Part shown: one piece after another, positions 1 through 64,000 of the stretch | Layout of the letters: the number at the start of each line of letters is the position of its first letter | Numbering within the stretch: the stretch's first letter is position 1 | From: Asterochloris sp. CNOR1 | Taxonomy: Eukaryota > Chlorophyta > Trebouxiophyceae > Trebouxiales > Trebouxiaceae | Assembly (NCBI GenBank): GCA_963969365.1 | Contig: OZ017752.1 | Location: 1,612,001-1,676,000 of the forward strand | DNA: 64,000 nt | Reading direction: 5' to 3' | Translations under genes and position numbers: made by a program | Notes under the pieces: generated by a model | Databases searched by the model: none | The model's input: the letters and a program-made list of their open reading frames with translations, nothing else | What the model was told of the DNA's origin: nothing

Positions 1-3000
1 CTGCGGGCGAGCCCTGACTGTGCCCCTGCAGAGCAGAGCGGCAGGCTTGCAGTCGTGCGGCGCCGAGCCTGGGAGCGCGGCATTGCTGCACCTGGGCACA
101 AGATCCACACAAGCAATGAGGGCAGTGCCAGCCGTGCCACATCTGCGCACTCCTTTGGTGTGCAGACGCTGGGCCGCAGCGGGCACTCCAGCACTTCTGG
201 CAGTACAAGCAGCGGCAGCATCAGTGCAGGCGGTTCCACTTCTCGCGCCAGCAGTGGCAGGACTGGTAGCAGCACCAGCGCGAGCACCAGCAGGCCGCAG
301 ACATCTGAGCCTGGCTTGCCAACTCCGCCAAGCGCAAGCGGGGGTGCAGCACCGGCAGGTGGTGCCAGTGATGCGCCAGACGCTGCCAACAAGTGGAGAG
401 ACCTGCTGCAGGGCCTCAACCTGCAGGCGGACCACGACCATCTGAGGCTGCTGCAGACACAAGAGGCGGGCAGCAGAAGCCTGGTGGTTCTGCAGGTGCG
501 ACACCTAACTCTCAGTGTTGTTGCACACATGACCTGCTGCTGGAGAAGAGGCTGCTAGGTCTCAAACTGCAGGCAGAGCTTCTTCAGCTGCAACGCTCAA
601 GGTGGGAGCCCTTTCTGGCAGACCTGGCAGTCTCTTTGCATGCAGGAGGGCTATGGTGTGAACCAAGCTGCAGAGCGAGGGGCCTCTGAGTGCCCAAGCC
701 AGCCGTGGAGTCAGCAGGTGGCCGCAGTGGCCCAAGAGATGGGCGCTGGCATGCTTGAAAGTGTGATGGAGACACTGCTGCGCCAGGTGGGCCGTGCCCT
801 GCCTTTGTATAAACCCCTGCCCAAGACACCCAGCTTGATGGGCCTGCCTGAAGCCGAACCATGCCTGAGTCATGAGCTCTGCCAGCAGCAGGATCCAGAA
901 TTTTTGCCTTTGGCTTCTGCGTGGGGCCTGGCCGTTGCTGTTCACACAGAAGGCTTAAGCCAGCAGGCAGGGCAACGAATGCAAGCTGGCGTGTCCACTT
1001 GAGGTTGTAGTGCAAGGCTGCCAGCCTGCGGCGCATCGCTCCTTATGTCTGCAGGCTGCTCAAGATGTCCTGCGGCTGCCAGGAGCTGCCTCTGCATTTG
1101 CAGACACTATGCTGGCCCTGAGCATCATGGGCTGCACCGGCAGCCACAATGCTGCGCAGCGGCTCTGGCAGGAGCAGTCTCACTCTTATTCAGGCCAGAC
1201 GGCGGCAACTGCTGCTGACAAGCAGCACGCGATAGGAGCACCAGGGGCGGCCCTTCCACCTGGGCAGCACCCCGGGGCTGAGGCTCAGCAAGCAGGTGCA
1301 GGGCGGTCAATGTCAGTGCTGACGCTGCAGCAGCAGGCAGTGGCGCTGGTGGGTGCGGCAGTGGATGTGCCCGAAGCAGCTGTCAGGCAGCTCTCAGGGG
1401 TCAGCCAGGTGCAGGGCCTGCAGGCGGCCGCTGTACTGCAGAGCACACCCCAAGCCTCTGCCACCACCCCAGCCGTGCCTGTAACGGCAGAGCAGGCAGC
1501 CCAGGGCAGCAGCCAAAGGGCAGGCACGGCAAAGACCCCCCCTGCTGATGGCCAGGCAGCCCTTGCCCAGGACCTTGCCATCCGTCAGCAGGCCCTGCTT
1601 GGGCTGGCAGCACACCTGGCGCAGTGCCATGCAGCTGCAGCAAGGCACGCAAGCGACACAGGGCAAGTGGCGGCATCGAGGCCCATGGGCAAGCCTGGGC
1701 GATCGGGCGGCCTGGTCCCCAGTCAAGCAGTCCCCTACAGTCTGGCGCCAGAGGCACGCCTGCCACTTGGCACTGCCCTCAAGCAGCCCCTAAGCGCAGA
1801 GCAGGCAGCCAGTCTCCATCGCCAGCTGCTGCCTCTGGAGGTGCATGCAGGCGTCTGCATGCCTGCCTCGCTGCCCCAGCCTGCACAGCCGACAGGCAGG
1901 GCACAAGGCGGTCCCCAGTGGCAGCGCCGTGGCCTGTCAGCCGAGTACACCTTCTGGCAGGGAGCCGCTTTGCAACAGCAGCCCGTGGCGGCCGCACGGG
2001 AGGCTGGGCAGCAGTCAGGCCCTGCCAGCCCGCTGCTGTGCATGGCGGCGGTGCCCCAGGCAGGGCTGCTGGCCGGTGGGACTGCAGACGGTTCCCTCTG
2101 CATCTGGCAGATGGGCACTACAGGAATGCAGCTGCAGCAGCATCTGTCTGGGGTCGTTCAGGGAGCTGTGCTTGGTGAGGCCCCGTCGCCCTGCAACTTT
2201 GGCCGCTGAGAAGGATTAGGGTTGCGGGCTGGTTGTCACTCTCCCTTGTCACTTCCCACCCCTGACTTGCAGGCGTGGCTGATGGCTGTCTCAAGGAAGC
2301 ATTACAGGGTGCCTGCTGTTCGACATGTTCATGCTGCTGCTCAACTCTGTGGCAAAATACCTCCTGAGACACAGCACCTCCTGAGACTCAAAACCTCTTG
2401 CAGGCATTTGCTGGGATACCGCAGGCCACACCCTGGCCGTAACATCAGCAGAGTCCTTTGCTGTCCTTCGCCCTGCGCCTCCAGCGGCCGAGTGTCAGCC
2501 ATTGGCTGGAGAGGCCTCTGGGCAAGCTCGCAGCAGCAGCGCATGGCAGCTCAATTTGAGACTGGATGCCGCTCAGCTGCTGGGATCGGTGCAGTGCAGC
2601 GCCATGAGCATCTGGGACCCTTGGGAGGCCTTGGCGGCTGAGGAGGCAGAAGCTGGTGAGGAGCTTGAGGCAGATGCAGTGCCTGGCAGCAGCCTGGCTG
2701 CTGATGCAGGCACAGCTGCTGCACAGCAGCCGGCAGCTTCCAAGGCAGTGCCGCCAGCCATGCAGGTAGGCAACAGGAGGCCATCTCTGGCAGAGGCAGC
2801 ACTGGCAGGCAGGCAGGCAGCTGCCAGGAGGCCGTCTGTGGCAGAGGCAGCCAGTGTTGCCGGCCGCACCCAGCCGATGCCAGGGGCAGGCACTCAGGGA
2901 CAGCGGCAGCCACAGCAGGGCCGCCAGCACCTCACTGCCCTGCTGCTGCTGGAAGGCCCCGCTGTTTTTCTGGTGCGGGCCAACCATGATCTGCTGCGTG

Positions 3001-5750
3001 TCAGCTTGCCGTCTGCTGACGTGGCAGCGGCTGGCTCAGCAGGGACTGCTGAGCAAGCAGGGCCACAGCAGATGCCCGCTGATCAGCGCGAGCCACAACA
3101 CCCAAGCTTTGCAGCATTCCATGATGGCCCCACCCGCAGCCCCAGGAGCACAGACAGGCCCCGACAGGTTGCAGCCTTCCTCACTCCGCCCCTAGAGGCA
3201 GCAGGGGAAGATGCACCCAGGCAGCACATCTACAGGGGCCACAAGGTGAGTCCCACAGCTGCTGGCTGCTGTTCCCGCCGGCAGACCGGAAGCATGTTTC
3301 TGCCTTGGCACACTCCAGGACCCTTGCCCTGGGGCCCCCTGTCTGCTTGGATGTTGCGCCAGAGTGAAGACTCTCAGCAGTGGACAGCGGCTTGTGAGCC
3401 CCTCGCAGGTGGTGCCTGCCGTGCAGGCAGCAGCAGTATGGGCAGGGATGGTGTCAGCGGGGCTGTTGACACTGGATGGGGAAGGCACACTGCTACAGTG
3501 GCCTGGTGCACCTCCTGAAGTGGCAGGGCCTGGCTGGGTGCTGCCAGGGCAGTCCTGGAGCCTCCGGCCATCAGTGGAGATGTGGCAGCCGATGTGAGGA
3601 GCTCTGATGCCTGACAGGGCTGCTGTCCCATGCACCTTGGCCTCGTCGGGAGAGTGCATTGTGCGCAGCCATCGCAGCTGCAGAGGCTGCTGCTCGATAC
3701 ATGGTGTCGGTCAGCAGATTTGTGATGGACACATATGGAACCAAACCTGCTCACCCTGGCTTGAGGGGCACTTGCGGCTTTGCAGGACGCCATGGCTGCA
3801 GTGCCGACAGAGCAGGCTGAGGATGCTGCAGGCTGCTGCTTGATGCGACTGGCCTTCACTGCTACACCAAGTTTAGGTGCAGTGCACATGCACCTCTGCC
3901 GGTGCCTGCAGGTCTCCATGGGCTGCAGTGTCTGCAGAGCAAGCCGAGCTGCTGAAGGGCCAGCAGCCCTGGATGGTGCGCCACACCACTACCCCGCTGC
4001 AGCCCGTGCAGCTGCCTGCAGAGCCCGAGGACGCTGCCAGGGAGGGCTTCTTTTCGGCGCTGCGTGGGGGCAGGGGGCGGCTTGCCCTCCCTGCAGCTGC
4101 CGCCCAGGCAGCCATCAGGGAGGCCCTGCACGTGCAGGAGGGTGGCAGGCCCGGCGTCGCACAGCTGCTGCTGGCTCAGCACGCTAGCCCGGGGGAAGCA
4201 AGCCTTGTGGGGCTGCACTGCTGCCAGGTGCACTCAGCTGCGCCTCTTCCAGCCTAGCCAGGCTCGCAGAGCCTATAGGGCACCCTGCAGTTGTTGGCCA
4301 CTTGGGATCCTTGTTGCCCCCAGGGCGGCCGTCTGCCACACTCAGCTGACGCCTGTGCTCACTGATGCCAGCAACACTGCAAGATGCACTGCAGGCGTGC
4401 TCAGAGATGTCGTCAAGCCTGGTTGACTATCTGATCATGTTGCCACTGCTGGTGTGCGTGTGCAGGCAGTGCGTCGCAGCTGCCGTGCTCAAGTGGTGGC
4501 CGCTTACATGGTACTGGGGCGGCAGCACCTGCTGCTGGTAACTGCGCCAGCCACCAGTGCCCAGCTTCCTGCCAGTGCTGTGTTCAGGGTGCGGCTGCTC
4601 AACCTCTCCCAGCCCGAGCCTGAGGTGAGACATATGCCTGCAGGCCTGATGGAACGTGAACAGGGTTTGGGATGCGGTTTCCGCTGCTGTTGATGCCAAA
4701 AGTATTGCACTGCGCCCGACCTTTCAGCATCGCCCTCTGGTTGCATTCGGCAAATACGCAGACACGCATCTGCTGTGTCTGTATTACAGCTGGAGCAATT
4801 ACCCTGTGCTTGAATGTATCTTTCCTGCAGCTGGTATCAGTCCACATGGACACCTCAACCTGTGCTCAGCATGCACTGCATCTTTGCCGATGCAGCTGCT
4901 GCAAGTCCAGATGGACACCTGATGTGCACGCTGTCACAGGCGTTCTGCAAGGCTCCTGCACTTGCATTATTGATCGCTGGACTGAGCATGCGCTGTGATT
5001 CTGCCCCTGAAGCTGGCCTCCATCCAAATGGACATCTGGGATGCCAACAGCGGCAAGCTGCCGCCAGCCTGCGCTGTGCTGCCACCCCTGTCAGGCCTGG
5101 CTTCTGCCCATCTGGCGGTGGCATTGGGGCTGGGAGCAGTGGGAATCTACTCCCTTATCACAGGTGAACACTGCCACCGCAACACTTGAGCATTGTAAAG
5201 CACAGCTGGCGTCACATCGTTGTGGCTTCAGCTTGTCACTCTCTGGAGATGACCTCAGCAGCAACAGCACACAGGTTGAGTCAGTCAAGGAGACTGTGAG
5301 CACAACTTGGGGGCGCTCTCATCTGCATTGCAGACTGGTGCTAGTACTGGCTGTTAACAGGAGCTGCTCAAATTACCTAACCGTGCTGCAGGGGCCCTTC
5401 TGCAGAAGCTGGAGGTGCCTGGCATAGTTGACAGGCAAGTAGTCAAATCGTTGCAGCTCTGTTCAGCTGGTAGGCAGCCTTGCCTGGCAGCACTGCATGA
5501 AGACGCCTCAGCGCCAGTGCTTGCTGTGCTGGACACTTTACGGGGGGCAGAAGCGCTCGCTCAAGAGCGCTGTGCTCAGTTGACCTCCGAGATGCAGTCA
5601 GGCCCCTCTCATGTGTCCAGCAGAGACAGTCAAGGCAATGCCGCGTCTACCAGCAGTTCTCATTCCAGTGAATCCCATTTGACCTCTGCAAGCAGCACCC
5701 CACGAGGCAGGAACAGCACTTTGTTGGACAGGACTGTCTCTCCAGTCTAA
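1..5750 (+). CDS. Large WD40-like repeat protein, 3' part (5' end outside window)
   Basis: This is the downstream part of a large multi-exon gene; I do not recognise the family. Readable exons include about 1-495 (Ser/Gly/Thr-rich linker, then a leucine-rich helical stretch), about 507-660, about 718-786, a long exon at about 1055-2174, one from about 2600 to 3245, and shorter ones near 3412-3590, 3940-4230, 4490-4625, 5010-5163 and 5400-5750. The long exon is Ala/Gln-rich but ends with a beta-propeller-like strand, LLAGGTADGSLCIWQM, typical of a WD40 blade. Later pieces such as AVWAGMVSAGLLTLDG and LLLLEGPAVFLVRA have the same alternating hydrophobic pattern. The exon around 2790-2850 holds two copies of RRPS(L/V)AEAA. 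The C-terminus is Ser/Thr-rich and stops at 5750. Tomosyn/Lgl-like or other trafficking propellers were considered, but no diagnostic motif is visible. Intron joins are the least certain in the window. Confidence 0.55.
4821..5040 (+). repeat. Three degenerate copies of a junction segment in the WD40-like gene
   Basis: A segment containing tccaNatggacaNct occurs at about 4831-4855, 4896-4920 and 5013-5038. A second shared block (agcatgc-ctg) recurs at 4867-4888 and 4984-5005. The first copy directly follows a good acceptor, tttcctgcag, and the third reads into the apparent exon LASIQMDIWDANSG. Copies are about 65 and 115 bases apart. Confidence 0.6.
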
Positions 5751-5963
5751 GCATGATTAACCTCCAGGCCTTCCCCATATCTGGACTGTGCCTTCTCTCG
5801 ATTTGCATTCGATTCAGACTCAACAGCTTTCAGAATTGGGCAGCAGATGTGGGGAGGAGCAGTCATGCCTGCAGGGTAAGACTGGTACAAAGTCTGTAGT
5901 AAGCGGGCCTAGGCTAGTTCTCAGCAAACATCCACCCAAATGGGGCAGTGATTGCGGGTCAGC

Positions 5964-8900
5964 TCAACTCTCTGCAATAAATTTGGCTGCCCAAAAGACT
6001 AGCACCCAGAAGAAACCCAGCTTCACGACATTGAGGGTACTCTTGGTCACCCGACCTGCAAGCTTTGACAGGGCCGTGCGGGCACCTACAAGTGGATACA
6101 AACTTCTGAGACCAGCCAGGTTTGCAACAAGCTCAACAGCAGGTAAATTGCAGAGCATTGCTGTGAGAGGGTGGGGCCCCAGATGCAGCAATGACAGGTG
6201 GGATGTGCAGCAGCACGCACGCTCTGATGTGACTGCAGCGGGCGCACTCTCGGGACTCACCAGCGGCAACCACAACAAATCCAAGCAGCACCAGGGCTGC
6301 CTGCAGTGCCAGCTTTGTGTTATCGTCGAGTGGAACTTTCGAGATGCTGGCCGCCTCTGAGTTGAGGGCCTTTTCTGTGAAGTCAGACACATCAAACAGC
6401 AGAATGCCGCCCACGCTGCCTGCCAAGGCTGTGAGGAGCGCAATCCCCAAGATGTTGATGCCACCTGCAGGCACATGCCTTCGTGTTGAGGGGTTGGTTC
6501 GCCTGCAGATTAGCCACTTCCTCGAGAGTACAAACGCGCAAAACACATGGCTGTGAGTGCTTGAGGTGTGCCCGCACCCACAGCCACGGCTGTGACCCCG
6601 CAAGGCACCACTGCCATTCCAGCCACACCGCGTTGAGGGAGCGGCATCAGTCTGTGCCACCAGGTCGAGGCCCCACATCAAGCAGCACGATGTCTGCCCA
6701 CACACACATACACACACATGTGTTCACCTCTCTGCCGGGCCTCTGCTATCTCGATGTCTCCCTTTTCAATGAACTGCTGCAGGCCCATCTCCCCTCCTGC
6801 GAAGCCTCCGGTGATGTTGTCTACAGAGCAGAGCATCCTGATCAGCTGCTGAGAAACATCCCGTGGAGTGGCATACATCAGCTGAGTCTTCTGCACAGGG
6901 GCAGGGTTGCTCGCACTCCAGCAAGGCGGCTGAACTGAAACCTGCCATGCCATGGCACTCCTTGGCTGTTGCGCAAGTCTGCACTTGATGTGGACAACAT
7001 TGCTGCTGCAAGACAGCAGCTGAGTGCTCCTGGCTGTGCGTCATGCAGACAGCTCTCCTCTGACGAGCACCAGGAGGCCTCAGTGAAACACACAATGTGA
7101 CCACCATCCTCACCGAAGATGCCAATGCTTTCCTTGTCAGGATAACGCCGAGGGTCGTCCTTGACCATCTTGCCCTTCAGGCCCTGCTTTCTGCTGTCAA
7201 AGTCGCTGCACCAAGACAGAAACAAAGTTGAGAGCAGCCCAGGGATGTAAGCAGTGACGGCTATCCAGCCAAGGAGACATGGCGGTCCCACAGTGCAGCA
7301 GTCTCCTGCTGCTGTGAGGCAGGAGGGTCGACATCTCCCTGCATCTCACAACCCACTCTGCGCAGGACCAGCCTGACTGCCCTGCTTCATGCTGCAAACT
7401 CGTGCTGCAAAAGGGCACAAGCATAGGCAGCTCACCCTTTGTCAAAGCCGATGTAGAGGGTGTCGCCGTCCTGCTTCATGACCTTGGGCTGGCTGGTCAT
7501 GGCCTTCTTCCTGTCCTCCTCTGACATGACAGTCTTGCTAGCACCTGACGAAGCCTGCTCAGCCTGCAGGAGCCATCCATCAGTGAGTCAGCCTGTGCTC
7601 GATGCCTTGACATGCAGCTGGCTGTTGCCCAGTCAGCCAGGTGTGCCCAGGCAGGGAGCAACAGCCAGCCCTGCTGCAGCTAAGCCTGTGCGGGATGCCT
7701 GGGCAGGTAACGAGCAAACGTGGTTGCAATAGCATGGCGCGCCTTTGGGCAGGAGGCAGCAGCCATGCACGTCGGCCGGTGCTGAATGCCTGGGTGGGGT
7801 GCCAGCGGCCTTACAGCAGCGCGGCACGCCCTCGGCAGGGGGGCAGCAGCATCACCACTGGCACCTGGCCTGTGCTGAACGCTCTTGCACAGGCAGCTAG
7901 CTGCTGCCAGAAGGTTTGGGCAGGAGGTGGCTGGTTGTTCTCAAGCCGGCTGTAAGGCAGATGGCGGACACGCTGGCAGCTCGGCATGCCTGACAGCAGA
8001 CGGCGAAGCTGCAAGTGATGCATGGCGACTGCAGCTGGGCTTATGCTGGATACATGGGCAGGCTGGCAAATGTTCACGACGTGTTGCACCAAGCTAAGCA
8101 GGATGCAGCGCGCTGTGCACGGGGGCCAGCAGGCCAAGGCTGGCGTCACGCCAGGTTACAGGTCAGCATGCCAGACAGAGGCGGCGGGATGCACATAAGG
8201 AGGCAGCGCTGACCTGGATGAAGGACAGCAGACCTTTCTCGCCACCAGCCCAACCTCCTGTGGTAGTGGACCTCTCAGGATCTGCAGACAAACCAGCAAC
8301 TCTCGTCCTCCCACAAGGCAAGCCTATGATTTGTTGCTCCTGGGCATGCGCGCCTGCAGACTGCTGCCCAGTCCCTGCGCAAGGCACCACGCAGCCCATG
8401 GTGGTGCCTGACATCAGAGACAGACGGGCGGGGCACCCAAGGCAATCAGACTGAAGCACGAGGCCTGCCGGCCGCTGCCCCAGCCTGCAGCAGCACAGCC
8501 CTCTGGCCGCCTCCCTCTAGTCCGGCTGAGGCACTCACATCTGGAGGGGTCGTCCTTGACCACCCTGCCAGGCCGGGTGCGGTCATAGTCTCCCTTGGAG
8601 TAACCCAGATAGATGGTCTCCCCGCTCTCCTTCAGCACCTCAATCTCTGGGCCCTTTTGCGTGACCTGTGCAGCAGGAGATAGCCATGCTGCATCACACT
8701 GGCTTAGCTGCAGTCTCGTGTGGGATTCGCAAGCTCTGGCCCCTTCTGCTTGGCTTGCACAGTGGCAGTCAGCCAAACACCACCACCTGTTTGGGGGGTA
8801 GTTCTGAATTACCAAGACAGCAGTAGCCAGCCTTCGATGTTGAAACCACCCCTGAGCATGAGCAGGATGCTTGATTGCAACAATCCAGCCCAGGTAGCCC

Positions 8901-13500: not shown

Positions 13501-14650
13501 GACTCCGGCCGCCACCCTGAGGGCCCATCGGGCCCAGGCCAGGAATGGTGACTGATTGGTTGGCGCGAGCCTTGACGAGGTGGGTCCAGGTAAACTTGGC
13601 GCCTGCGGCCAGCTGATTGAGTTCAAAAAGGCAAGTTTGTACAGAATATGGTGTCAATGCTGAGGCGATGGCAACAACCTGCGTCACCGCAGCCCTGCAC
13701 CGACAGGCTGTCTCTGTGAGGCTATTGTGAAGGCTGTACAGCCCTTTTTTGCGCCAGACATGTGGGCTTGTTGCCCGTCAGGAAATCTGAAAATCTGCTC
13801 ATGTTGCAATACTGCTGACTGTGTAAGCACACTCTCTCAAGTGCCTGTTGTGAGCTCACCCATGTAGGTGTCCGAGCAGGCCTCATTGTCTGCCAGGGCG
13901 AAAATGACACCTGTCCCCTTGGACTGCTGAATCTGTATACGCCGCGCTGAGTCTGTGCCCTTTCCGTTAAGGTACACCTTGACCTGCGCAAGGGAACACA
14001 TGCAGCCCAACCGCATGCTGGAGCACCCATGGCAACATCTGGGCCATGAAGTTTGCTGTGTGCAGAGCATGCAGCTGTCTGTAGGTTGGACATCGGCCCA
14101 TGCTGGGCATCAAGGCATGCCACCTTTTCGTAATTCTCATCTGGTGTCGCTCCATTGAACTCTGCACAGCGACAGCCAGCCTGTAGGACCATGGCAAGCA
14201 TAAGGGAACAGCTCTGAATGGGCCAGGACATGCTCATTAGCAATGTCATTGTCAGAGGCTTGCCTGCGATGGTATAATACCGGTTAGGATCCACAGCGAC
14301 AGCCAGCCTGTAGCACCATGGCAAGCCATGAGGCGATAGCTCTGAATGGGCCAGGCAATCATTAGCAATGTCACTGTCCCAAGCGCTCGCCTGTTGATCC
14401 ATCTGAAGAGCAGCCTGCTCCATTCGGGCGGGAGGATGCCTGCAGCAGCAGAGCAGCTGCATCAGCACTCTCTGATGCTGTGGAGGGCACATATCTGGAG
14501 ACACTCACCCCGCGCCACAGCTCCCACAGTTACCAGCGTGGTTAGGAGCCCAAAGATGCCATACAGGGAGGTGCTCTGGGAGCTGGCACCAGGCACCTTT
14601 GGCGCTGTTTGCATTTGGTTGCCCAAAGCTGCAAATTGAGCTGGAGGCAT
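10519..14650 (-). CDS. BCS1-type AAA ATPase
   Basis: Exons: 14509-14650, 14124-14161, 13860-13983, 13367-13602, 12825-12890, 12530-12692, 11963-12072, 11664-11742, 11232-11368, 10886-11014 and 10519-10718. The N-terminus has one membrane helix (SLYGIFGLLTTLVTVGAVA), then a BCS1-type N-terminal domain ending in RSFQLSVHRRH. The plant-type PFKHPATF lead-in precedes the AAA domain: Walker A GPPGTGKT (split by an intron after the third Gly), YDLDL, Walker B LVVIEDID, sensor 1 FVFTSNHPERLDPALIRPGR with the arginine finger, and a basic C-terminal tail. BCS1 in mitochondria translocates folded Rieske protein; plant and algal paralogues can sit in other membranes, so the substrate is not known. Phase does not carry between the exons at 11664-11742 and 11232-11368, so a small exon or an unusual splice site is missing there; all other joins are consistent. 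Confidence 0.88.
14162..14395. repeat. 126-base tandem duplication in BCS1-like intron 1
   Basis: The block beginning acagcgacagccagcctgta occurs at about 14166 and again at about 14292, and the similarity runs for roughly 100 bases (ccatggcaag, gctctgaatgggccagg, attagcaatgtca). The first copy directly abuts exon 2, so the duplicated unit includes the branch and acceptor region of that exon. Confidence 0.8.
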
Positions 14651-19165: not shown

Positions 19166-19338
19166 AAATGAAGGGGTCTTTGCCCAATGCATGCGTCAGA
19201 ACATCAGCCATGTGCCAGATATTGAACTGTTGATACTCAATAAGTTGAAGACAGCAGTCTTTTGCCATAATGAATTGAGGGCAGAACAATGATCAGGGTA
19301 TGTCAGAAGGCAATAATATGTCTCAGGTTGGCTGCATC

Positions 19339-21855: not shown

Positions 21856-21908
21856 TTGAATGAACATTGTTCACGATTTTGGCTCAGCATTTCCAATTGA
21901 TTGGCATT

Positions 21909-24900
21909 TCATGTGAGGTCTCGGCGTTGCAAGAATGAATCAAGCATGTGCAGTGCCTCTCGCGGCTTGGACTCTGGCACCGTGTGACCGGCGCCCTTGA
22001 TGGTCACAAATGTGAGCCCCTCATAGTGCTGGGAGTACCCAGCCACTTGGTGATCCACATTCCACTGGCGCCACCCATGCTTCACCTTCAGGCCCAGGGA
22101 GCGCGTCCACTCCTCTGAGCCTGTGTGGGGCACGCACATATCGTGGTCCCCACTGTAGATCAGTGCATGCAGGCCTGCAGCCAGGGAACAGGGGCTGTAT
22201 CCATCGCATCAGCCAAGCTGGGGTGGCGGGGTTGCAATGCCACTCTACCAGGACAAGATGAGGGGGCAGGCTGCAACATTTCGTAGCATAGGGCGTGGAA
22301 TGCTGCAGCTGTAAGGAGCAGGCATACCTCATCAGAGTAGTCTTGCTGAGGTAGTCAGTTTGCCATGGCAAAAGCACACAGTACAGCATAGCAAAAGGAC
22401 ACAGGCGATGACCACTGCACCTTTGTGCAGCAGCTCCTCGTGGATGGGCAGCATGGAGCCCAAATTGTGGTTATAAACGATGCGGTCTGAGCACTCATCA
22501 AACTTCCCTATGGCGCTAATGGGCTTCGCATGTATGGCACGCCGAATTTGGTCGCTGTTAGCAAATGCCCACATCTCCCTGCAGCAGCGTGGTGTAAAGG
22601 GCTCAGATGGTGGTGAACCTCAGCTGCACCGCTCAGACTGCACTTGACGTCCTGATAGGGGGCCAACATGTGCTACACCAAACCCTGCTTGCAGCAGCTG
22701 TACCCACTGCGGGCGGGCGAGCAGTGACTTCTCATGACACTCCCAGAATGGCCAGGAGTCAAGGCAGGACGGCACGTGACCCAGCCCAGCCCCCAGCAGC
22801 TGTCCTAATCACGGAACAGCAAGGCCCAGTGGTACTCAGGAGAAGCCCCAAAAATACAGCACTGCACCAGCCTGAGCTGCAGCACCATCCGAGCCACCTC
22901 CTTGAGCTTAGGTAACAAGCCACCGTGAGGCACACCCAGCTTCCTGCTGTACAACAACAAGGACCCACCTGAAGGCCAGGCAGGGCAGCGCATCGTCAAG
23001 CCCTGGCCCCAGCAGCTGATCACTGTAGAAGAACAGCTCTGGGGCTTGAGGCTCCATGATGGCCTGGACCCAGGCAGTTTAAGCCACAGGAGCAAAATCG
23101 GATGCCTACTTTACGTCCAGGTAGGGCAGCACGTGTCCAGATCAGCCCCAAGCAGCTGAGTCCACTCTGGGGGGGGCTGCTGACTCCCTACTTGCCAGGG
23201 CCTAGGCACTGAACACCGGGCAATGGGCAGACCCCTACCTGGAGTCCAGACAGGGCGGGACGTGGCCCAGCTCAGCCCCGAGCAGCTGGTCCCATCTCGG
23301 GACGGGCCCTGGAGCAGCTCCCCCGCCCAGAGGCCACTGCCGTGCAGCCAGGCTCTGCCTGGCTGCCTGCACAGCCTGCTGCCGTGGCGCGCCGCCATGG
23401 TAGCAGGGCTGCAAAATGTTATAGACTGCAAGCAGCAGAGAGGACTTTACCACTATCATGCTGTATTCAGAGGGACTGACTGTGAATGCTCTGCAGGTAA
23501 GGCAGCAAAGCAAACAGGGGTAATCTAATGATCTGCCAACAGCAGCGTTCAGCCTGGGTGAGCACAAGCAGACCAATTGAGTCTGGCCCCTATGTCTGAC
23601 TGCATTACTGCCACTGGAGTTCGAGGGCTGCAGGCAGACAGCAGCCAGACTCGAGTGGCAACGCAGTCAAAAGGGGTGGTGCACAATATGGCAAACTTGC
23701 AAGCTTACTGTTGATGTTCGTTAGGCTGTGGTAAACCTCATTCAGCATGTCATCACAACTGCTCCCTGCAAGGCACAGCAGCACCTCAGCAGAAGCTGAA
23801 GCCAGCAGAGCAGGAGTGTGCGACAATTGGCAGACAATTCTCACAGTCTGCGTGCAATGGACTGCGACAGCGTGCAAAGGACTGCAAAAGCAGCTGGCAG
23901 CTATGTGACTCTGCAGGACCCCCGTCTCACCCCTGGGCTGTAAGTCAAAGCCCATCTCTGGTCAGTACAAAGCTGCCAGACACCTCAGCAGCCCTGCTAG
24001 TGGCCCATCTTGGGGCCAGCTCCACCAGCAGCAGCTGCAAATGAATGCCATTCGTGCCGTCAACATGCACGCTGCCGGCTACCTAGAGGTGCAGCTCCAA
24101 CACCCCGCCTGACATCCTTTACAGGTGAAGGAAGCTCGATGGAAGGTCCAGCTTACCTTGTGTTGCGTTCCAGAAGCTGCCCTGACACTCGCGATGTACA
24201 CTGTGGTATTGGTCATGGCTCAGCAAGGACTGGCCATAGGCAAAGGGAATGACAGCATTCCCATCAATCTCCTCGTCAGTAACTCCATTGCCCACCGCGT
24301 AGCCCTGCGGGCAGGCATGCACGACTCCAGACAACTCAGTGGGCCTGACTGGCAGCACAGGGTGCACAGCCCTGCACGACACACGCACAGACCAAGGCAT
24401 TACAGGTTGGCACATGCTGGCACATGCACTCCAGGGTGGCAGATGCTGGGGGTTGACGGTTGACAGCCCTGCAACATCTGGATGTGATTGCAACAGCAAT
24501 GCTGCGTGGCAGGTAGCCTTCCAAGCCTTGCTGTGCCAGCAGTGCCCATTGCACAGCTGACCTGCATGTTGACAAAAGGCTTGCTGCCATCCTCATTACT
24601 GTGCAGGATCTGGCGGGCCAGCGTGGGCACATAAACGCCAGCATAGCTTTCACCTGCACAGAACAGGCTCATGTCAATACGCAAGAGGAATGAGATGCCC
24701 TGCTAACGCACCAGGGTGGAGAGCCAAGAGGTTGAGTGCTTGACCTTATGCTGTGGACTGGCTGAGGAACAAATTTGGGCAGAGGCAACTCAGCACCGGG
24801 TGAAAGGCAATCACCTCGGCAGTGCACTCCCTCAACAAGATCATAGAAGGGTGCTTGACGCTGCAGGCCCTTATGAGGAGTGCAAGAAGGAGTCAACAAG

Positions 24901-28069: not shown

Positions 28070-28076
28070 ACACATT

Positions 28077-31000: not shown

Positions 31001-32287
31001 GTCTAGGCCCAGCACCCTGGGGTCCTCCCTGGTTTGGCAAACAAGCTGCTGCTGGGCGCTGGGCCCCTGCACGTCTGTCGCCCCACCTGATCTGCCTGGC
31101 TGAGCTGTCAGCCAACCTGCTGTGCCCATGTCCCCTGCTGGAGTGGCCCTGTGGAGGGTGCTGCTGCTGCTGCTGACGCAGGGTATAATGGGCTCGCATG
31201 TGGCCGTGCAGCATGCGTTCCTGCAGCATGGAGCGCAGCCAAGAGTGAGGCGTGGCTGTGGCACAATGGAGCCATACAGAGCAACTTGTAGGGTGCAGGG
31301 CCGTCAGAGGCGCCCTGTGCAATCATCACTGCGGGGCAGCGTGTGCCCATGACAGCACCAGGAATATGAACTGAGCGCTGACAGCTACTTGGCTTGCAAA
31401 ACTCAAGCAAAGGAATCAAACCTCTCCTGGATAGTGCAGCAGAGTGCAGCAGAGTGCAGCGCTGGCTGCACAAGCAAAGGAAGGGTGTCCTGCAAGCCTT
31501 CACAAGCACAGCAGTGACTGGAGGTGCCCTTCCGTGAGGAAGGCATCTTGTTAAAGGCTGCTGTTGGCGTCTTCAGGGACGTGGCCCACATTTGGCAGGG
31601 CTGCAGTCTCACAATGCAGCTTGTCAGGTGTGTCATGCTTGTGGCTGATGCGTGGTCTCACCAGGAGGCTGCTGTCAGCATTTCCAGGCACGTGGCCAAT
31701 GACTGGCAGAGCTTCAGTCCCCTCCTCCAATGCACTCATCTTTCGTGGCGGAGAGTCTGGGACTGCCTCCTCCTCATAGCTAGCATCTGACTTGATACTG
31801 TGCATGTAGAAACGGACTCGTCTCTGCAGAGCCAGGCCAATGTTTCACTCAAAGCTGTGCACCCCACAGCAGATCTCAGGGGATGTGTGAGCGAAGGTCA
31901 AGAGCAGGGCTCGGCGACTGCTGCGCTGTGTGCGATACCTTGCACAGGGGGCAGATGGGCTTGACAGCAAGCCAGGCCTCCAGGCAATCCCTGCAGAAGG
32001 CATGCATGCAGCCTCCGACTACTGCTCTGACACAGGAGGGCTGCTCCTCCGTTAGACCTGCAGGGCAGCACATCAGTGAGCAGGCATGCGGCTGTAAGAG
32101 AGAGCTTCGTGGGCAGCAATAGTGCAGCATATGCAGACGCACATATGGAGCACTGCACATTGGGCTCTCCCTCCACAGCAGCCTCCAACGGCTCGTCAGA
32201 GAGGTCTATGTGGACTGGTTCATCTGGTTCTGGGCTGGAACAGATGTCAATGGGCGAAGCTGATCGCTTGCGCTTCCTGTCTGTCAT
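28077..32287 (-). CDS. TOPORS-like RING finger E3 ubiquitin ligase
   Basis: Eleven exons: 32143-32287, 31939-32057, 31662-31823, 30937-31220, 30511-30565, 30335-30380, 29754-29916, 29518-29555, 29316-29430, 28955-29030 and 28077-28742, giving about 622 residues. The N-terminus is acidic and basic (TDRKRKRSASPID). The RING-HC finger reads CSIC, then GGCMHAFCRDCLEAW and CPLCK, giving C3HC4 spacing. Downstream are segments that match the C-terminal conserved region of plant TOPORS-type proteins: WRRHLYDNQLFAGAL, PRLEKWVQRELQAVLG, ALSPFLHDHTEQFWHELR and FGHAPFVAYVYDRMVHYF. The last exon is Arg/Ser/His-rich like an SR tail. TOPORS-type enzymes act in the nucleus as E3 ligases; the target is not predictable. 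The start at 32287 is the first Met before the charged region. The join at 29518/29430 is the weakest. Confidence 0.82.
31557..31720 (-). repeat. Exon 3 end duplicated into the following intron (TOPORS-like gene)
   Basis: About 50 bases at the end of exon 3 (31669-31720, coding LPVIGHVPGNADSSLL) recur 109 bases downstream in the intron (31559-31611), where the frame would read LPNVGHVPEDANSSL and then a stop. The copy is preceded by an acceptor-like gactgcag, so it could also act as an alternative terminal exon. Confidence 0.75.
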
Positions 32288-36500: not shown

Positions 36501-38877
36501 ATGATGCCTGCAGGCGACCCCATGCTGGATGCCAGGATAGTCTGGTCTGTGGCCAACCCTCCACGCCCTGACTTCTGCGCTGCTGACAGCGGGAGCCTCC
36601 TGCCATCCTCCTCTACTGAGGCTGGCTTTGGGCAGTGCAGACCTATGTCTGTCACACAGGGTGAGCACACTTGCAGCTGTCGGGCCCCATGCCTGTGCAT
36701 GGGTGCTGGGTCGGGGCTCCGCAGGCCTGTGTTGATCACCCATTGTGTTTCTGGCTGCACTGGTTGAGAGCATGCATGGGGTAGGGGCTGGGGGGCGTGC
36801 AGGCCTCTGTCTGCTACACAAGGTGAGCTGGCTGCAGCAAGGATGCTGCAACAGCGTAGCCTTGCTTTAGTTGTGCAACGTGGGTCTGGCTGGAAGCGCA
36901 TGCATGGTGTGCTAGATTCACAGGCTTCTAGGTTGCCCTTGAGGCAGAGCTGTTGCACACATGCTGTGCTGAGGCTGGCCTGGCCCCTGCCTGCAGGCCC
37001 TCTGGCAGTGGTCCACACCACCTCCTCACAGGGCCACACCTTTGCCGCGCTGCTGCCATCCCACTTCGGCCTGGCAGCTCCCTCAGCCGCTGCTGAGCAT
37101 AGCTCCCGGCTCAAGCGCCCCAGGGAGGGGCCTTGCCCGGAGCCCTCTGCCTTCAGGCAGAAGCTCAGCCATGGCAGCAGCCACAGCCTGCCAGTTGTAA
37201 GGAGTGCCCACCAGGAGCTGGGCTGGCCCCGCAGCCTCAGCGTGCCACGGCAGGGATGGCAGGCAGCTGCTGCCCCCTCCCAGCAGCTGCGCCCCCAGTC
37301 TCAGGGCCCAAGAGGGGTGGCGACCAGCCACAGTTCCAGCTGCGCACCCACAGGCAGCGTTGACTGGCTCAGCATGACGCCTGAGCTGCCCTCCCCCAGC
37401 CCTGGTCAGTCACATGCCACAGACCTGCAGGCAAGGCAGGCCTGCGAGGGCCTCATGCCACAGAGCAATGCCGCCTGGCCAGGCCCCTCTGAGAGTATGC
37501 TGTCCGGCAGCGAGGCGCCGCAGGCACCTGCAGACCAGCCCAGCGACTGGGCTGCTGCGGCGGCCCTGCAGCAGCCTGGCAGGTCTGCTACACGGCACCC
37601 CTCACTGCCACCTCCAGTGCCCTTGTGGCAGCCCCGCCCTGCGCAGCAGCAGGGCAGTGGCAGTGCTGCAGAGCGCCCCCCACAGCCCAAGGTACTGCAG
37701 ATTGCTGGACTTCTTGAAAGGGCACAGTGCAGCATCCACCCCTGTCACCTGCAAGGCAGGATTGAAAACTGCTTGATGGCAGCTGCTACGGAGGCAAATG
37801 CTGCCTCTTACACATACTGACTGCACATTCTGGGCACCATTCCTCAACCCCTGTGGGCATGCTGCAGGTGAAGCGTGGCGCCCCTGCAGCGCCTGCCAGG
37901 CGTGACGTGCTGGCACAGGCACGGGCTGCCCTGCAGCAGACTCCTAGGGACCTGATGCTGGACCAGCTGCAGCAACAGATGGAGAGTGGCAAGCATTCCG
38001 GCGGGCTGCCAGGGGAAGAGTCGCTGCTGCACCTGGAGCCCTCCCTGGCCGTGGACCAGCCACAGACCTCGAGCTTGTTGACAGCTGCGCTCATGGTGCT
38101 GAGGCAGGCTGGGGGCCCAGGCCTGCAGGCCCCCCTGCCCCACCTGGAGCACGCTGCACACAGCATGCAGCACCACCACCCCTACTCCCCCCAGCAGCTG
38201 ACGGCGGCCCAGATCTCGCAGGCGCGCCAGCACCAGCAGCTGGGGCTGCCCCTGTGCCTGCCGGGGCCCTCGAGGCTCAGTGTGCCGCGCCCCGCCGAGC
38301 TGTCTCCCGTGCCCGAGCAGCTGCAGCCGCCGCGCCCCTTCCAGAGTGTGGCCTGCACTCCAATGGGCTTCACCTACACTGAGAGCGGCCTGCTCGGCAT
38401 GCCCGCGACCAGTTCAGCAGGACTGCTCGTGTCGCGGGTGGCCAGCCCTGCCCATGTGGATTGGGCTGTTTCCAGCTGCGACGACGTTCTGCCTGAGGAG
38501 TCTGGTCTGGCAGACCTGTTTGCAGGTTGGCGTCTGCATGGTGGTTGCATCTGCTGGCAGCCGCACATTGATGGCGTGCTGGTCAGCATGCACATCGAGC
38601 TCCCACTGCCCTGGCTCCGGCAGACATCTGCCTGATGCCAGTGCTGGGTGCTTGACCAGCCCTGAGGGCCACAAGTGCCCATGCTGTGTGCTGATGGAGC
38701 TGCAGGCTGCTTGATCAGCAGCAGTGTCTGTCTATCAAGTGCTTGCTGCCCCACGAGCTTATACGTGCCCCTGCCTTTGCTGTCAATGTTAGTGCTGAGC
38801 TGTCTTATCCCTGTGCTGCAGACCTGCCACCTGCCACCAGCACAGCATCCATCATGGAGCACAGTGGCCCAGAGTGA
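36501..38877 (+). CDS. Unrecognised low-complexity Pro/Gln/Ser-rich protein
   Basis: Four exons join in phase: 36501-36660, 36997-37691, 37868-38525 and 38822-38877, giving about 522 residues. I do not recognise a domain. Visible features are a basic patch SRLKRPREGP near residue 85 that could be a nuclear localisation signal, many SP and PS pairs, Gln/His-rich stretches (QQLTAAQISQARQHQQLGL), an amphipathic helix RRDVLAQARAALQQTP, and an acidic end SCDDVLPEESGLADLFAG. The composition suggests a disordered regulatory or RNP-associated protein. It is downstream of and parallel to the bZIP gene but separated by a stop and a TGTAA. The start is uncertain because the frame stays open upstream. 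Confidence 0.6.
36615..36832 (+). repeat. Exon 1 donor region repeated in the following intron
   Basis: The end of exon 1 and its donor (gcagacctatgtctgtcac ... gggtgagc, to 36668) recurs at about 36690-36745 and 36768-36830. The third copy has gcaggcctctgtctgctac followed by a full donor, aaggtgagc. Copies are about 80 bases apart. Confidence 0.6.
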
Positions 38878-43252: not shown

Positions 43253-43378
43253 GCTCCAGAACACTGTTGTCTAGCATACAGCAACACAGAGGTGGTTGCA
43301 TGCAGCAGCTGATCAAGACATCCTGATAGCATGAAGAACAATTTATAGAGGACAGAGCTAGCACGGCTGCAAGGAAAC

Positions 43379-46300
43379 TCAATTTTTCAAGCACATTGGG
43401 TTCTTGAGAAGCTGAGCAGGCGCAATGATGATGCGTCTGAACGCTCTCCTTGTCCTGCAAACCGCGCACACAGGCATGAGTAAGCAGAGGCCCCGTTCTT
43501 CCATGCTGATGTGCCATCTCATCGGTGCTGATATTCACTGCAAGGTCTTGTGTGCCTTGGCTCACCTCAGCAAGACATCAATCTCCAAGCGAGCGGGGTA
43601 TGCAATGCTGCTGGTGCGCCGCTGCGCAAACGTATTGTCCCTGGACGCTGGAAGCAGAAGGGGGTATGAGCCATAGGCCATATCGGGATACAAGCACAGC
43701 CTGCAGCAGCATAAGCCTCCCTTGGTCCAGAAGGATGACCTGCGTTTTTGCTTTGTTGGTGAACACAGCAACAAGGAGTGCCGCCACAGAAAGCCTACAT
43801 TGCGTCACTACATTTTGCGAGGGGTGAATCTCACTTGGCAGGTCGGGTGTTGCAGTTGACCAGCTCGCTGTCATCATCAAACAGGACGTTCTGCAGTGCA
43901 GCATTCTATGCTGTGCTCATGCACAAGACCATGCCTGACATGTGACTGTGCAGGACGACTGGAGAACAGCGTATGGGTCAGTACACAAGACAACACAAAG
44001 GTCCCATGCCAGGCTATGGAACGGAGCGGCGACTGCGCCAAGCAATGCACACCCACCTGCATGATGCCCTGCCATGTGCCACCATCGAGCCATGTAGTAG
44101 GGCCAGGATCAAGCCTGCAACAAGGCAACCCAGGCAGGCCTCAGCATGCACGACGCCTCATGCACCTCCAGCCATTGTGCAGAATGCACAAAGCAGCAGC
44201 CAAGCCTGTGGGTCCTGCCAAGGAAGCAGCTGGAGGATGGGTCAGCGCGGCTTCAGTACCTGAAGCAAGGAGCATGCTTGACACCGAAGCTGCAACATCC
44301 TTTGGCAACAAGCCCTGGGCTGCAGTGCAAGAGGCTGCCAGTGCAGTGTGTGCCACAGCCAGCTCGCCAGCAGTAGAAGAGCTGCTACATCAGGCAGCGT
44401 AGCACTGCTGCCAGCAGTGTCCGGGCACTCAAGACAGCTGAACAGTCTCTGCTCTCCAGCTTGGGGTGCGGAAGGCCTGCCAGTGCAATGCTTGCCACAG
44501 CTAACTGTGCAGCCTTGAACAAGCATAACCTGCCGCCGGGGTGCATGACGGGAGCGCCCTCTCAGGCAGAACAACGTGACCAAGATGCCAGCAAGGGAAT
44601 GCCACCGCAGCCAGTGCAAGGGCAGGGCGCCTCACCGGTCCCTGCTCTCCAGCTTGGGCTGCTCATCAAAACTGATAGTCCCCTCGCGGTCCACGTCTGT
44701 GAGGTGCTCCTGGATGAAGAGGTGGGCCACCAAGCGGAGGCTCTGCACATTGTATACCGGCCCTGCCGACCACCTGAAATCGCAATCCTGCACAGGACCT
44801 GTCTGCATGAGCTTGCAGGGGTGCAGTGCAGCATGCACAGCAGTGGCATCAGCGCCAGGCAGCAGCTTGCTTGCCGTGGGATGTGGCTGATTGGCCATGC
44901 TCCCACGTACCTGCAGGAAGCCCTCAAAGGCCCAGGTCTGCCTCATGAGGGCTGGCAGGGAAGAGCCTGGGTACAGCTCCAAGTCCAAGGCACCACTGTC
45001 ATTCTTTGCTGGCGGCAAAGCACATAGCTACAGGGCACAAATTGCTTTACAGATGTGACTGCTGAAGGAGAGCAGGAAAGGTGTGCCAGCCAAGCTGGAG
45101 GACAGCCACATAAGAGGCTCCCAATGATGGAGGGGTCACAGCAAGCAGCTTGTGCGGGCTTACCATGCGCACACAGCTCTCTGGCTTGAAGGGCATGTTG
45201 TGCTGTCACATCCATCAGCGGCCTGGGCGCCTGATGCTGCATGTGCAGGCTTGGGCATGGCTCAAGCCAAGTTCAAGCGAGCACAGCTCAAGCAATGTTC
45301 AAGCAATTCAACCCACCAGAAGACGCAGGGAGGCTTGCCCTCGGCCAGCTCATCCTTAGTTAGCTTGAAGCTCACTGCAGTCGCAAAAGAAGGCAGACTT
45401 TGCACACCATGTGCTGAGGGCTGCTCTGATGGGCGCTCGTGTGCACCGCCCGCACTTAGCAGGCTAAGATCTGCTACACACTGGCAGCATGGCCGCCACA
45501 CAGGGTCAGCGAACACCCAGCAGAGGCAGCTGCAACGGCCTGGATGTATCTCGTGTATGCATGCAATAGACCCTGCCTGCTGTGCAGTGGCTACATTGAA
45601 AGCGACTTCAAGCAAGAGCCCACAGCAGACATAGCAGGCTACACTTGCTCACCGAGAAATGGGGATCAGACAGTTTCCTGCTGTAGTTACTCTCCCAAAC
45701 TCAATCTGGACGCTGCGTGGTGTTCAAGCTGGCTGGGCTGGTTGCAAAGTAATTGTGAAGATGCACCTTGTCATCTGCAGCTGCAGAAGGAGGGCCACTT
45801 GCGTGAGGGCATGGTGGCCAGCCTAAGCACATGTGTGTTTGCTAAAGTGCCTTGCCATGCCTGCAACTGGCTACTGCTGGTGCAACAGCAGGACTGCAGG
45901 GTTCAAGCACACAGGCCAGTGTGCAAATGAGCGTTATATCTAAAAGGCACAATGCTGTGGAGTGGAGCTCTCATGGTGACCTAGTCAACCACTTGCCCCT
46001 CCAGCGGCATTGCAGGGAGCAGGAGCCAGTGATGAGCAGGCTTTAGTATGTTCACGCCAGCAGCACAGCATCATGCATGCAACCAGTTGCGGCATGACAC
46101 GCCACAGGAAGGCAGGTGCCTGTGCCTCGCTTGCGGTAAAGTTGCCTCTGCCTACACAATTCAGCAGACAGCCACCTTGCGATTGGTAGCTCCTGATGGA
46201 GCAGAACTCAGTGGCATCCTGCTGCTGATCCTGCCTCCAGCCCACATTATGAAAACGCCAATTGCCGAAGTATGACTGCCTGCATGAGTTTCCAGTTGAC

Positions 46301-47338: not shown

Positions 47339-55402
<8,064 letters not shown>

Positions 55403-58971: not shown

Positions 58972-59267
58972 TGTTGGGTGTCCTCATGGAAGGAATGAGC
59001 AGATGCGTCAGCTTGAATTAACAGATGCTTGTTTGGAGAAAGAATGCATGCACATGCACAGAGCTTCTTGCGCACCCATTGCAAGCTGTAGCAGCCCCAA
59101 GCCCATGAAAGCATGGTCAGTCCAGCAGCAGGACCAGGATATGCTCACATCGCTTTTTCAAGTGGGGATCTGCTGTCAATAGCAAAGGATGTTCAGTGTG
59201 CAAGGCAAAGTTGCTTTCTTTGGTGCTGTGCTCTCGCCATGCCTGAACATGCAATGGGGTCCTCTAT

Positions 59268-62200: not shown

Positions 62201-64000
62201 TTCAGGTGCAGGGCCCCATCCTGGGAGATGTAGCCGCACAGGATCCCCTCACGGAACAGGCGCCGAGAGTCCCTGCATGCAGGTGTGGCCTGCAGAGGTG
62301 TGCACGAAAAGAACAGACCACCCATTCAGATTCAATTGTCAGTGATGACGCAGAATGTGCCAAATCTGTGGCGCTGCAGACAGCTGCCATACATCAGGTT
62401 CCTGCATGCAGGCAGTTCCTGCCGCAAGTCCCCCCAGAGTTGGGAAATCTAGTAGTGAGGAAACTTGTTCTCTGGAGGGCGTGACCCAGGATTGGAAGGA
62501 CCCAACATGCTGGGTCAGGGGTATAGGGTGTGCCAGCGGCAGGCAGCAGGCCGTTCACTCTGTGCCATTCTTGTGCGTGATGCGGTCACGCCTGGCTCGA
62601 ATGCAGATGGAACTGTTGAGGCCCTCATGTGCAGCCCACACTAAGCTGTCATGTATGGTGCTGTAGTCCTGCTGAAGGCGTCCTGCTGGGCGGGGGCACG
62701 TCAGCAACACATGTAGCTAAGCTGATGCTCCCAGCTCCCTGCGTGGCCCTGCCTCAAATCGCGCACCTGTAGGTCCTGCCGTGCAGCTCAGGGAAGCCCT
62801 GGATGTAGAACGTTGCACCGTTTTGAGGGCTGTGCTGGGTCAGACTGCAGTACACATTGGCCACCCCAGGCTGCAAGCAAGGCCAGCAACAAGTCAGCCA
62901 GATATCACACAGCTGGACAAGGTGCAGATCGCGCCCCCTCGCAGAAGCTTGCTTTCAGGTCTGATATTCAGGCACTCGTGTAGCAGAAGCTGGGGATGTC
63001 ACCTTGCTTCAGGGATGTCACGCAGGAGCTGCCTCAGCATGGTGGCAACAGGAGCATGCCAAACAGACTGCACCAGAGCCATTGATCCAATCAAGCCCGT
63101 TGCGGGTGCTGTGTGGTGCACCTGGATGGCTGTCTGTGCCACTAGGCGGGTGATGTCTCTGTTCCCATTGATGTGCACCGGACGGAGGCCCTGGTCGGAC
63201 TGCGCGGGTGTCCTGGGCTCCGTGCGGCGTGCTGGCAAGCTCTCCTCTGGCGTTTGGATGACGATGTTCTGCCCTGAGCTGGGCACTGAGGGGTCCACTG
63301 CCGCGCGGGCAGACTTCAGGGCCAGCACAGTGGCAGCCTTGATCTTGGAGGCGTCCTGCAGGCGTCACACAGGGAGCTGGTGTAGCCCAGTTGACTGAGA
63401 CACGTTCGAGCGTCACCCACTGCAGAAGTGGGTACATGCCAGCACAGTGACCCTGACTCAGGAGACATTTTGCGTGATCTAGCGTGCATGCATAGACAGG
63501 CCTGCCAGCATCAGCTGGCCTGGCGCTGAAGCAAAGCACTGAGGGCCAGGAAAAATGCCAGGTCAGCTTGGGCACCAAGTGGGCTGGGGCTCAGGCAAAT
63601 GCCACTGAAGCCTGGGTAGGGCAGGACGATGCCAGCAGGCTCCAATAACTCACTGCTGCATTTTCAGGGTGCAGCAGCACCACTGTGTGCGCACTTCCTG
63701 CCGAGATGCTGTTCAAATCCTTCAGGAAGTGGGGCGCACCTGCAGGCAGTGCACAGCCGTTGTCCAGAGGTGGCTGTGCAGATGCCCTCCTCGTTACAAT
63801 CAACAGTTGAACCTCAGGACAACCTGAGAATGCTGAAAGCCCTTGCTCAGGACACGAGCAGGCGTAGCAAATTATGTCGCTGACTATTTCCTATTTGCAT
63901 TGCACAGCGCCGCAAGGCTGTCTTGTGTCTTACATCATATGATGCTCCTGTCCTCTACCAAGGCAGCCAGGGCCTCACCAGAGCGGGTGATGACCTTGAT
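59268..64000 (-). CDS. CASTOR/POLLUX-type ion channel, RCK-containing part (5' end outside window)
   Basis: Exons: 63979-64000 (partial), 63657-63739, 63003-63355, 62767-62844, 62142-62272, 61609-61788, 60981-61157, 60397-60542, 60015-60107, 59571-59699 and 59268-59414, giving about 512 C-terminal residues. The pore-forming N-terminal helices would lie to the right of the window. Visible pieces match the cytosolic part of plant CASTOR/POLLUX (DMI1) channels: SAGSAHTVVLLHPENA, DASKIKAATVLALKS, LFREGILCGYISQDG, RGDRLIVLANDG, HKRIVVLGWPGRIDDL, PVHIVTNIKHPETVQ, and a second RCK-like half with GQRTHLTAELVHPEEL, DGQEIYLRRPERFGL, GETAIGYIESKEG and RVVVIAGLD at the end. In plants these are nuclear-envelope cation channels acting in calcium signalling; in algae the role is unknown. 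The intron after LLSQ requires a GC donor (60014-60013). Confidence 0.87.

Follow-up and report, generated by a model that had tools for sequence, protein, structure and literature searches.

Introns hold copies of their own exon edges

We wanted to establish whether introns in a stretch of the genome of the green alga Asterochloris sp. CNOR1 have been lengthened by tandem duplication of exon-intron junctions. The stretch, at its full length of 64,000 nucleotides referred to from here on as the window, is positions 1,612,001 to 1,676,000 of contig OZ017752.1 in assembly GCA_963969365.1 (C7:1612001-1676000 in our numbering of contigs). A preliminary description of the window had proposed that at least six unrelated genes carry, within an intron, decayed copies of the adjoining exon end or start at a spacing of about 80-215 bases, that this density would be unusual, and that the underlying process might be linked to nucleosome-sized units; it had suggested comparing each exon edge with its own introns and with shuffled or non-adjacent ones. 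We sampled the window together with a 10-kb stretch of every contig from C1 to C18 (18 stretches, given L numbers below, with positions counted within the stretch), giving a total of 244 kb from a genome of 56.38 Mb in 21 contigs. The sampled DNA is ~58% G+C, and Asterochloris glomerata is reported to have a genome of 56 Mb, with 56-62% G+C in 98% of it and 9 introns per gene (PMC6652019).

Genes were modelled ab initio with a purpose-written splice-aware hidden Markov model (HMM), trained on the sampled DNA without RNA support, which returned 578 exons (median 124 bp) and 525 introns (median 205 bp) with a CAG|GTGAG-like donor and a CTGCAG|G acceptor as splice consensus; some neighboring genes were merged in these models, and at least one decoy copy was called an exon. 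Proteins from the window models (one of them edited) matched the Pfam families S10 (E = 1.8e-125), AAA (E = 2.2e-15), and RQC (E = 6.4e-24). Of the gene names used below, only carboxypeptidase, AAA/BCS1, and RecQ are backed by Pfam; the others come from the preliminary description or were assigned by eye.

For the edge test, the last and first 60 bases of each exon were aligned to the exon's own intron, with 6 bases trimmed at each end, and alignments scoring at least 28 were counted as copies. Copies of their own exon edges were detected in 22 of 202 better-supported introns (6/65 in the window and 16/137 elsewhere), compared with 7/2000 length-matched foreign introns, 1/548 non-adjacent introns of the same gene, 3/202 reverse complements, and 6/1010 shuffles (Fisher P = 4e-18 for 22/202 versus 7/2000). 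The full set of 488 introns of 60-1200 bp, from which these 202 were drawn, gave 36/488, with controls of 20/4867 (foreign), 5/1827 (non-adjacent), 3/488 (reverse complement), and 8/2440 (shuffles), and a stricter small set of 84 introns gave 8/84 at a score of at least 32, with foreign introns at 1/785 for exon ends and 1/785 for exon starts. The comparison of own introns with non-adjacent and shuffled ones is therefore strongly positive, and introns in this genome do contain local copies that include exon-intron junctions.

The copies also lie on the side of the exon where a junction duplication would place them. We compared the two flanking introns for 216 internal exons that measure at least 120 bp: the downstream intron held copies of 17 exon ends and 0 exon starts, and the upstream intron held copies of 12 exon starts and 1 exon end, that is, 29 on the expected side versus 1, a bias that is due in part to the short spacings (a distance effect). 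Further, the copies are anchored at the junction: the aligned exon part stops within 6 bp of it in 18 of 24 exon-end matches.

Local direct repeats occur across the genome

Irrespective of gene models, the sampled 244 kb contain 120 direct and 2 inverted pairs of at least 30 bits that lie 20-600 bp apart. In the window alone, at the same threshold and 40-600 bp apart, we counted 20 direct and 0 inverted pairs; the same count returned 3 direct and 1 inverted after one dinucleotide shuffle of the window and 0 direct and 0 inverted in 50 kb of Escherichia coli K-12. The local direct repeats are thus real, being far more numerous than in the shuffled window, in E. coli K-12, or in the inverted orientation. 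They are also local: within stretches, every direct match of 38 bits or more joins places no more than 2 kb apart (stretches were not compared with one another).

At a threshold of 28 bits, 135 non-redundant pairs were obtained, 27 in the window and 108 elsewhere (P = 0.12 for the difference), which group into 86 clusters (16 in the 64-kb window and 70 in the 180 kb elsewhere), and at least three copies are present in 21 of the 86. The proposal that the window is unusually dense was not borne out: it is ordinary for this genome and, if anything, poor, with a mean of 3.3 pairs over its six complete 10-kb pieces versus 5.6 in the 18 other stretches (range 0 to 12). We conclude that the pattern is general in the genome, spread over the sampled contigs, and not specific to the window. 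We note that density is uneven, L002 and L014 being without any direct local repeat of at least 30 bits and L005, L013, and L016 having 11-12. We also note a larger tandem duplication at L012 6184-6987, with a spacing of about 393-404 bp and 81-86% identity, which spans exon and intron and may duplicate an exon.

Intronic copies decay as noncoding DNA

We counted mismatches by codon position in 53 exon-to-intron pairs and obtained 91/635 at position 1, 85/631 at position 2, and 151/633 at position 3; positions 1 and 2 did not differ (P = 0.69), position 3 was higher (P = 1e-7), and frameshifting gaps were present in 23 of the 53. A copy free to decay, set against an exon under constraint, would be expected to show this pattern, which thus also supports the gene models. 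The intronic copies decay as noncoding DNA, with the exons under constraint. Splice dinucleotides are retained in a minority of copies (donor GT in 7/24 and acceptor AG in 7/16, where 2 of the 24 donor copies run out of intron at that point and several positions are extrapolated). We do not claim this low retention as selection against decoys, because the HMM prefers the better splice site and so biases the set.

Spacing of the copies and a proposed account of intron growth

Spacings of 60-139 bp account for 57 of the 120 direct pairs and spacings of 140-219 bp for 21; the 120-139 bp bin of the histogram holds 16 pairs, and each of the next three 20-bp bins holds 5. Units shorter than about 50 bp are undercounted owing to the score threshold. 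The fall-off lies where nucleosome spacing (147-200 bp) would be, and on this histogram we rejected a nucleosome-linked process. From 27 intron-only pairs, treated without an outgroup, the rough duplication rate is 0.6-0.9 events per kb of intron per neutral substitution per site in one lineage.

We consider it probable that introns in this genome are lengthened by small local tandem duplication, filtered by selection on coding sequence. Under this account, segments of mostly 60-135 bp would be duplicated locally and in direct orientation throughout the genome; duplications within coding sequence would presumably be mostly lost, and those within introns tolerated. A duplication that crosses a junction would be tolerated as long as the outer splice site stays in use (the first donor for a copied exon end and the last acceptor for a copied exon start), because the mRNA is then unchanged. 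The extra exon edge and its decoy splice site would be left in the intron, which would become longer and in which the copy would decay neutrally; intronic copies may then duplicate again, giving ladders of up to four copies. Splicing would ignore the decoys. We infer that older pairs are likewise head-to-tail events of which part of the unit still matches.

The mutational source may be a repair process in which nicks close to each other, or staggered breaks, are filled in by synthesis, as in rice and mouse cells. In rice, the share of tandem duplications among insertions is reported to drop from 70% beyond 125 bp to 5% by 200 bp, and the cause given there is repair of adjacent nicks (PMC7971508). 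Breaks with 3' overhangs are reported to give rise to small tandem duplications in mouse cells, via CST and Pol alpha-primase (PMC8355091). The fall-off in spacing above about 135 bp seen here resembles the size limit in rice, and this likeness in size is the one observation here that points to a nick- or break-repair mechanism.

Exon-edge copies in genes of the window

In the window, 13 exon edges were each compared with 1000 shuffles of their own intron. Seven genes have a clear edge copy (8 of the 13 edges), which broadly agrees with the preliminary description except that the BCS1-like gene it had named is not confirmed as an exon-edge case; its "low-complexity protein," for which no position was given, was taken to be the gene at 36.6 kb. 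Spacings in the window are 77-225 bp, with one carboxypeptidase copy at 486 bp. The copies and their sources are as follows.

3907..3958, plus strand: WD40-like gene, exon start and acceptor, source copy (exon 3912-4206); 79% identity over 53 bp to 3781-3832, spacing 126
3781..3832, plus strand: WD40-like gene, decayed exon-start copy in intron 3594-3911; score 39, 0/1000 shuffles; keeps TTGCAG|G
4815..4920, plus strand: WD40-like gene, two copies 62 bp apart, possibly of the start of exon 5013-5163, in the upstream intron; 80% over 44 bp to each other
7379..7402, minus strand: gene at 6-9.4 kb, weak exon-start copy (source 7181-7205) in intron 7206-7435; score 28, 1/1000
14165..14378, minus strand: BCS1-like gene, 127-bp tandem duplication; 87% over 90 bp, TRF period 127, single genome locus
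23239..23292, minus strand: serine carboxypeptidase gene, exon end and donor, source copy (exon 23239-23490)
23115..23172, minus strand: carboxypeptidase decayed copy 1 in intron 22579-23238; 80% over 59 bp, spacing 129
22964..23021, minus strand: carboxypeptidase decayed copy 2; 72% over 58 bp, spacing 270; labelled exon by the HMM
22752..22802, minus strand: carboxypeptidase decayed copy 3; 84% over 51 bp, spacing 486; score 62, 0/1000 shuffles
24842..24860, minus strand: second carboxypeptidase intron, short exon-end copy (source 24919-24938); spacing 77; score 28, 0/1000
31555..31608, minus strand: TOPORS-like gene, decayed exon-end copy (source 31666-31719) in intron 31221-31661; 76% over 54 bp, spacing 111
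36793..36820, plus strand: gene at 33.9-38.9 kb, exon-end copy (source 36630-36658) in intron 36661-36837; spacing 163
44445..44469, minus strand: gene at 43.4-47.0 kb, exon-end copy (source 44638-44662) in intron 44115-44635; 92% over 25 bp, spacing 193
53861..54463, plus strand: RecQ gene, ladder of four acceptor and exon-start copies (53861-53901, 54244-54282, 54278-54371, and 54370-54463)

The carboxypeptidase gene offers an independent check on where the exon ends. In all five aligned homologues the CLDS and REMW segments, or their equivalents, directly adjoin each other, which fixes the exon end and makes the three look-alikes (at 23115, 22964, and 22752) intronic. Among the best 120 of 3864 matches, the closest named relatives of this protein are from Trebouxia lynnae and another Trebouxia (64 and 63% identity), followed by Myrmecia (62%) and Chlorella (53%). 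In the RecQ ladder, the exon start of the model sits in the last copy (54370-54463), and the TTTGCAG acceptors are 92 bp apart; the copies are 78% identical over 94 bp at a spacing of 92, the start edge scores 40 (0/1000 shuffles), and the tract is a single genome locus. The exon-end edge of the same gene gave no copy above chance (score 18, 547/1000 shuffles). The TOPORS-like edge (score 43, 0/1000 shuffles) likewise lies in a tract with a single genome locus. The edge of the gene at 33.9-38.9 kb scores 31 (3/1000 shuffles), and its copy retains AAG|GTGAGC; that of the gene at 43.4-47.0 kb scores 40 (0/1000 shuffles). For the WD40-like edge, we note that the reverse-complement control is also high, at 27 compared with the score of 39, and the second edge of this gene (exon 5013-5163), tested against its candidate copies, is not or hardly above chance (score 22, 39/1000 shuffles). 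The BCS1-like duplication at 14165-14378 lies directly upstream of a likely acceptor, in a region that the HMM labels exon, and is not an exon-edge copy; three exon edges of this gene scored 14-16 (at least 484/1000 shuffles) and thus yielded no exon-edge copy.

Three further observations concern the gene models and the assembly. The protein predicted at 7094-9435 (minus strand) appears by eye to contain two diverged domain copies, ETIYLGYSKGDYDRTRPGRVVKDDP...GGWAGGEKGLLSFI and DTLYIGFDKGDFDSRKQGLKGKMVKDDP...GGFAGGEMGLQQFI, which may represent an older multi-exon tandem duplication within one gene. At 47460-58971, the HMM fuses the RecQ helicase with a gene that by eye is TPR-like, and these are probably two genes. 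Contig C20 (110,056 bases) is close in size to the mitochondrial genome reported for A. glomerata (PMC6652019) and may be the mitochondrion.

Is the duplication head to tail, and is it aimed at junctions?

If introns grow by head-to-tail duplication, the match should fill the spacing between the copies. Among 20 strong pairs (at least 45 bits and a spacing of at most 200 bp), 8 have at least 83% of the spacing filled by the match, namely those at L013 545, L008 6918, L003 7127, and L005 5648, the RecQ pair, and those at L011 4101 and L010 650 and an exonic one at 2743. Four of the clearest are described here, the first three of them young.

L013 545 (545-748): 68-bp unit in three copies, 96% identity; the unit carries AG|GT
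L008 6918 (6918-7157): 119 bp, 88%, acceptor
L003 7127 (7127-7253): 65 bp, 87%, donor
L005 5648: 106 bp, 82%, donor

Several results weigh against simple head-to-tail duplication filtered by coding constraint, and some of them also favor an alternative in which exon edges are copied into the intron at a distance and without the adjoining intron sequence, for example through transcription-linked breaks near splice sites or templated insertion in end joining. The other 12 of the 20 strong pairs cover only 28-70% of the spacing, significant similarity extends to the remainder of the unit in no more than 15 of 40 pairs, against 2 expected, and older pairs seem to have a spacer between the copies instead of running head to tail. 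For the intron half of a copied junction, recognizable similarity (above the 95th percentile of the control) was seen in only 8 of 34 cases (2/19 exon ends and 6/15 exon starts), when simulation at like exon identity predicts 52-57% (57-65% in another run; P < 0.001); restricted to spacings of at most 160 bp with the edge within 8 bp, the count is 6 of 20 (P = 0.014-0.04). In 11 pairs a junction is present in each of the two copies, compared with 2.3 expected. Exon-exon pairs, some of which are mislabelled introns, are only mildly depleted (14 versus 19.0 expected, P = 0.15), and recognizable local repeats make up 4.2% of bases labelled exon, close to the 5.0% (6,544/130,000) of those labelled intron, with 2.4% of intergenic bases. 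The tight anchoring of exon-end matches at the junction also fits directed copying, but any junction-crossing duplication would give it. Faster turnover of intron flanks, templated insertions that bear a spacer, and errors in the gene models could each explain part of these results. Random placement of pairs would give 34.2 exon-intron pairs (40 seen) and 39.2 intron-intron pairs (35 seen). We also modelled uniform duplication events in which those inside exons are discarded, intron sequence decays in both copies but exon sequence in only one, and a like score cut-off is applied. Under this model, exon-intron pairs should outnumber intron-intron pairs by a factor of 1.13-1.58, and the ratio seen at a spacing of 50-200 bp is 38:19 (the remaining pairs being 6 exon-exon, 12 part-exon in both copies, and 3 intergenic), which lies above the lowest prediction (P = 0.05; 0.046) but fits the other two settings (P = 0.42). 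Random duplication with a coding filter thus roughly predicts the share of junction copies, so that they may need no special mechanism, and copying is not clearly aimed at junctions. Given, further, that 19 pairs at this spacing are purely intronic, that both sides of the junction were copied in the 8 of 34 cases above, and that the whole unit is covered in 8 of 20 strong pairs, we regard junction-directed or spaced copying as unlikely. If it were true, a preference for junctions or for spacer-bearing copying would be a leading source, in this lineage, of intron length and of decoy splice sites in need of silencing by selection.

The remaining alternatives fare worse. Intron gain by duplication of an AGGT-type site would leave donor and acceptor flanks similar in register, and such similarity (score of at least 18) is present in 6 of 467 introns, compared with 1.85 expected; the L013 545 unit does carry AG|GT, but the cases are very few, and of the two best, at least one is ambiguous, the one at L005 9476-9571 looking like a duplicated acceptor split by the HMM. 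We therefore hold AGGT-type gain to be very unlikely and reject it as a general account; of the preliminary idea of intron gain or growth at splice sites, growth is the probable part and gain proper is hardly seen. As to L005 9476-9571 itself, it is a predicted 96-bp intron whose ends match in register around CAG|GTGTGG, and it may reflect duplication of an acceptor or, alternatively, gain of the intron itself by duplication. One might take the intronic copies for genuine exons, alternative or mutually exclusive, given the donor and acceptor dinucleotides that some of them keep and the copy that the HMM labelled exon, but the equal mismatch at codon positions 1 and 2, the frameshifting gaps, and the missing carboxypeptidase copies in the aligned homologues make this highly improbable, and on codon-position mismatches and frameshifts we reject the copies as coding exons. 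In a coarse genome search, which missed nearby internal copies as well, four intron tracts each gave one locus in 56 Mb, from which it follows that the tracts are not introners; with no strong direct match beyond 2 kb within stretches, we reject an introner or transposon origin. Finally, CTGCAG words recur in this DNA, ab initio models are imperfect, and the shuffled window still yields 3 direct matches, so composition biased toward CTG, CAG, and TGCAG, or the gene finder, could be suspected of producing the pattern. Counts stay low, however, in every control (inverted, shuffled, foreign-intron, and non-adjacent), and the repeat excess is independent of gene models; these low controls reject chance from biased composition, and we give an artefact almost no credence.

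Discussion

Overall, the pattern seen in the window is real and general, while the claims on its density and on nucleosome size fail. Small local tandem duplication, which we favor as its source, has several published counterparts. The tandem duplications that arise from nick or break repair in rice (PMC7971508) and mouse (PMC8355091) are, as reported, likewise local, direct, common, and of tens of bp to about 125-200 bp; in contrast to those small duplications, the copies in the alga are old and decayed, are not segregating variants, and often match over part of the unit only. AGGT-type intron gain has in common with our account that tandem duplication acts on splice sites, whereas here an existing intron is lengthened and typically none is made. 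The nearest published single case is the potato RdRp gene, in which a duplication over an intron-exon boundary is reported to have created a new intron (PMC4974935); there, too, a junction-crossing duplication carried splicing signals, but it made a new intron in one gene, whereas the alga has a fossil copy in 22 of 202 introns and no new intron. In the green algae Chlamydomonas and Volvox, tandem repeats are reported to be densest in introns and close to junctions (PMC3887541), a bias to intron ends that agrees with the explanation we favor; in the passages considered, the repeats were counted by density and motif, with no mention of exon-edge copies. Introners (PMC9860276) similarly change intron content on a genome scale but are described as dispersed families, whereas the copies here are local. 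We found no description of exon-edge fossils as such in the titles and opening abstracts of top-ranked literature, with most subscription journals outside this coverage, and this speaks only weakly for novelty.

Conservation of the exon side keeps a duplicated junction visible, so that the duplication can be used as a dated fossil. The copies are decoy splice sites and decoy exons, and as such they also mislead gene finders, as when the HMM called one of them an exon. For this alga, local tandem duplication under a coding filter would offer a simple, testable account of intron lengthening without transposons.

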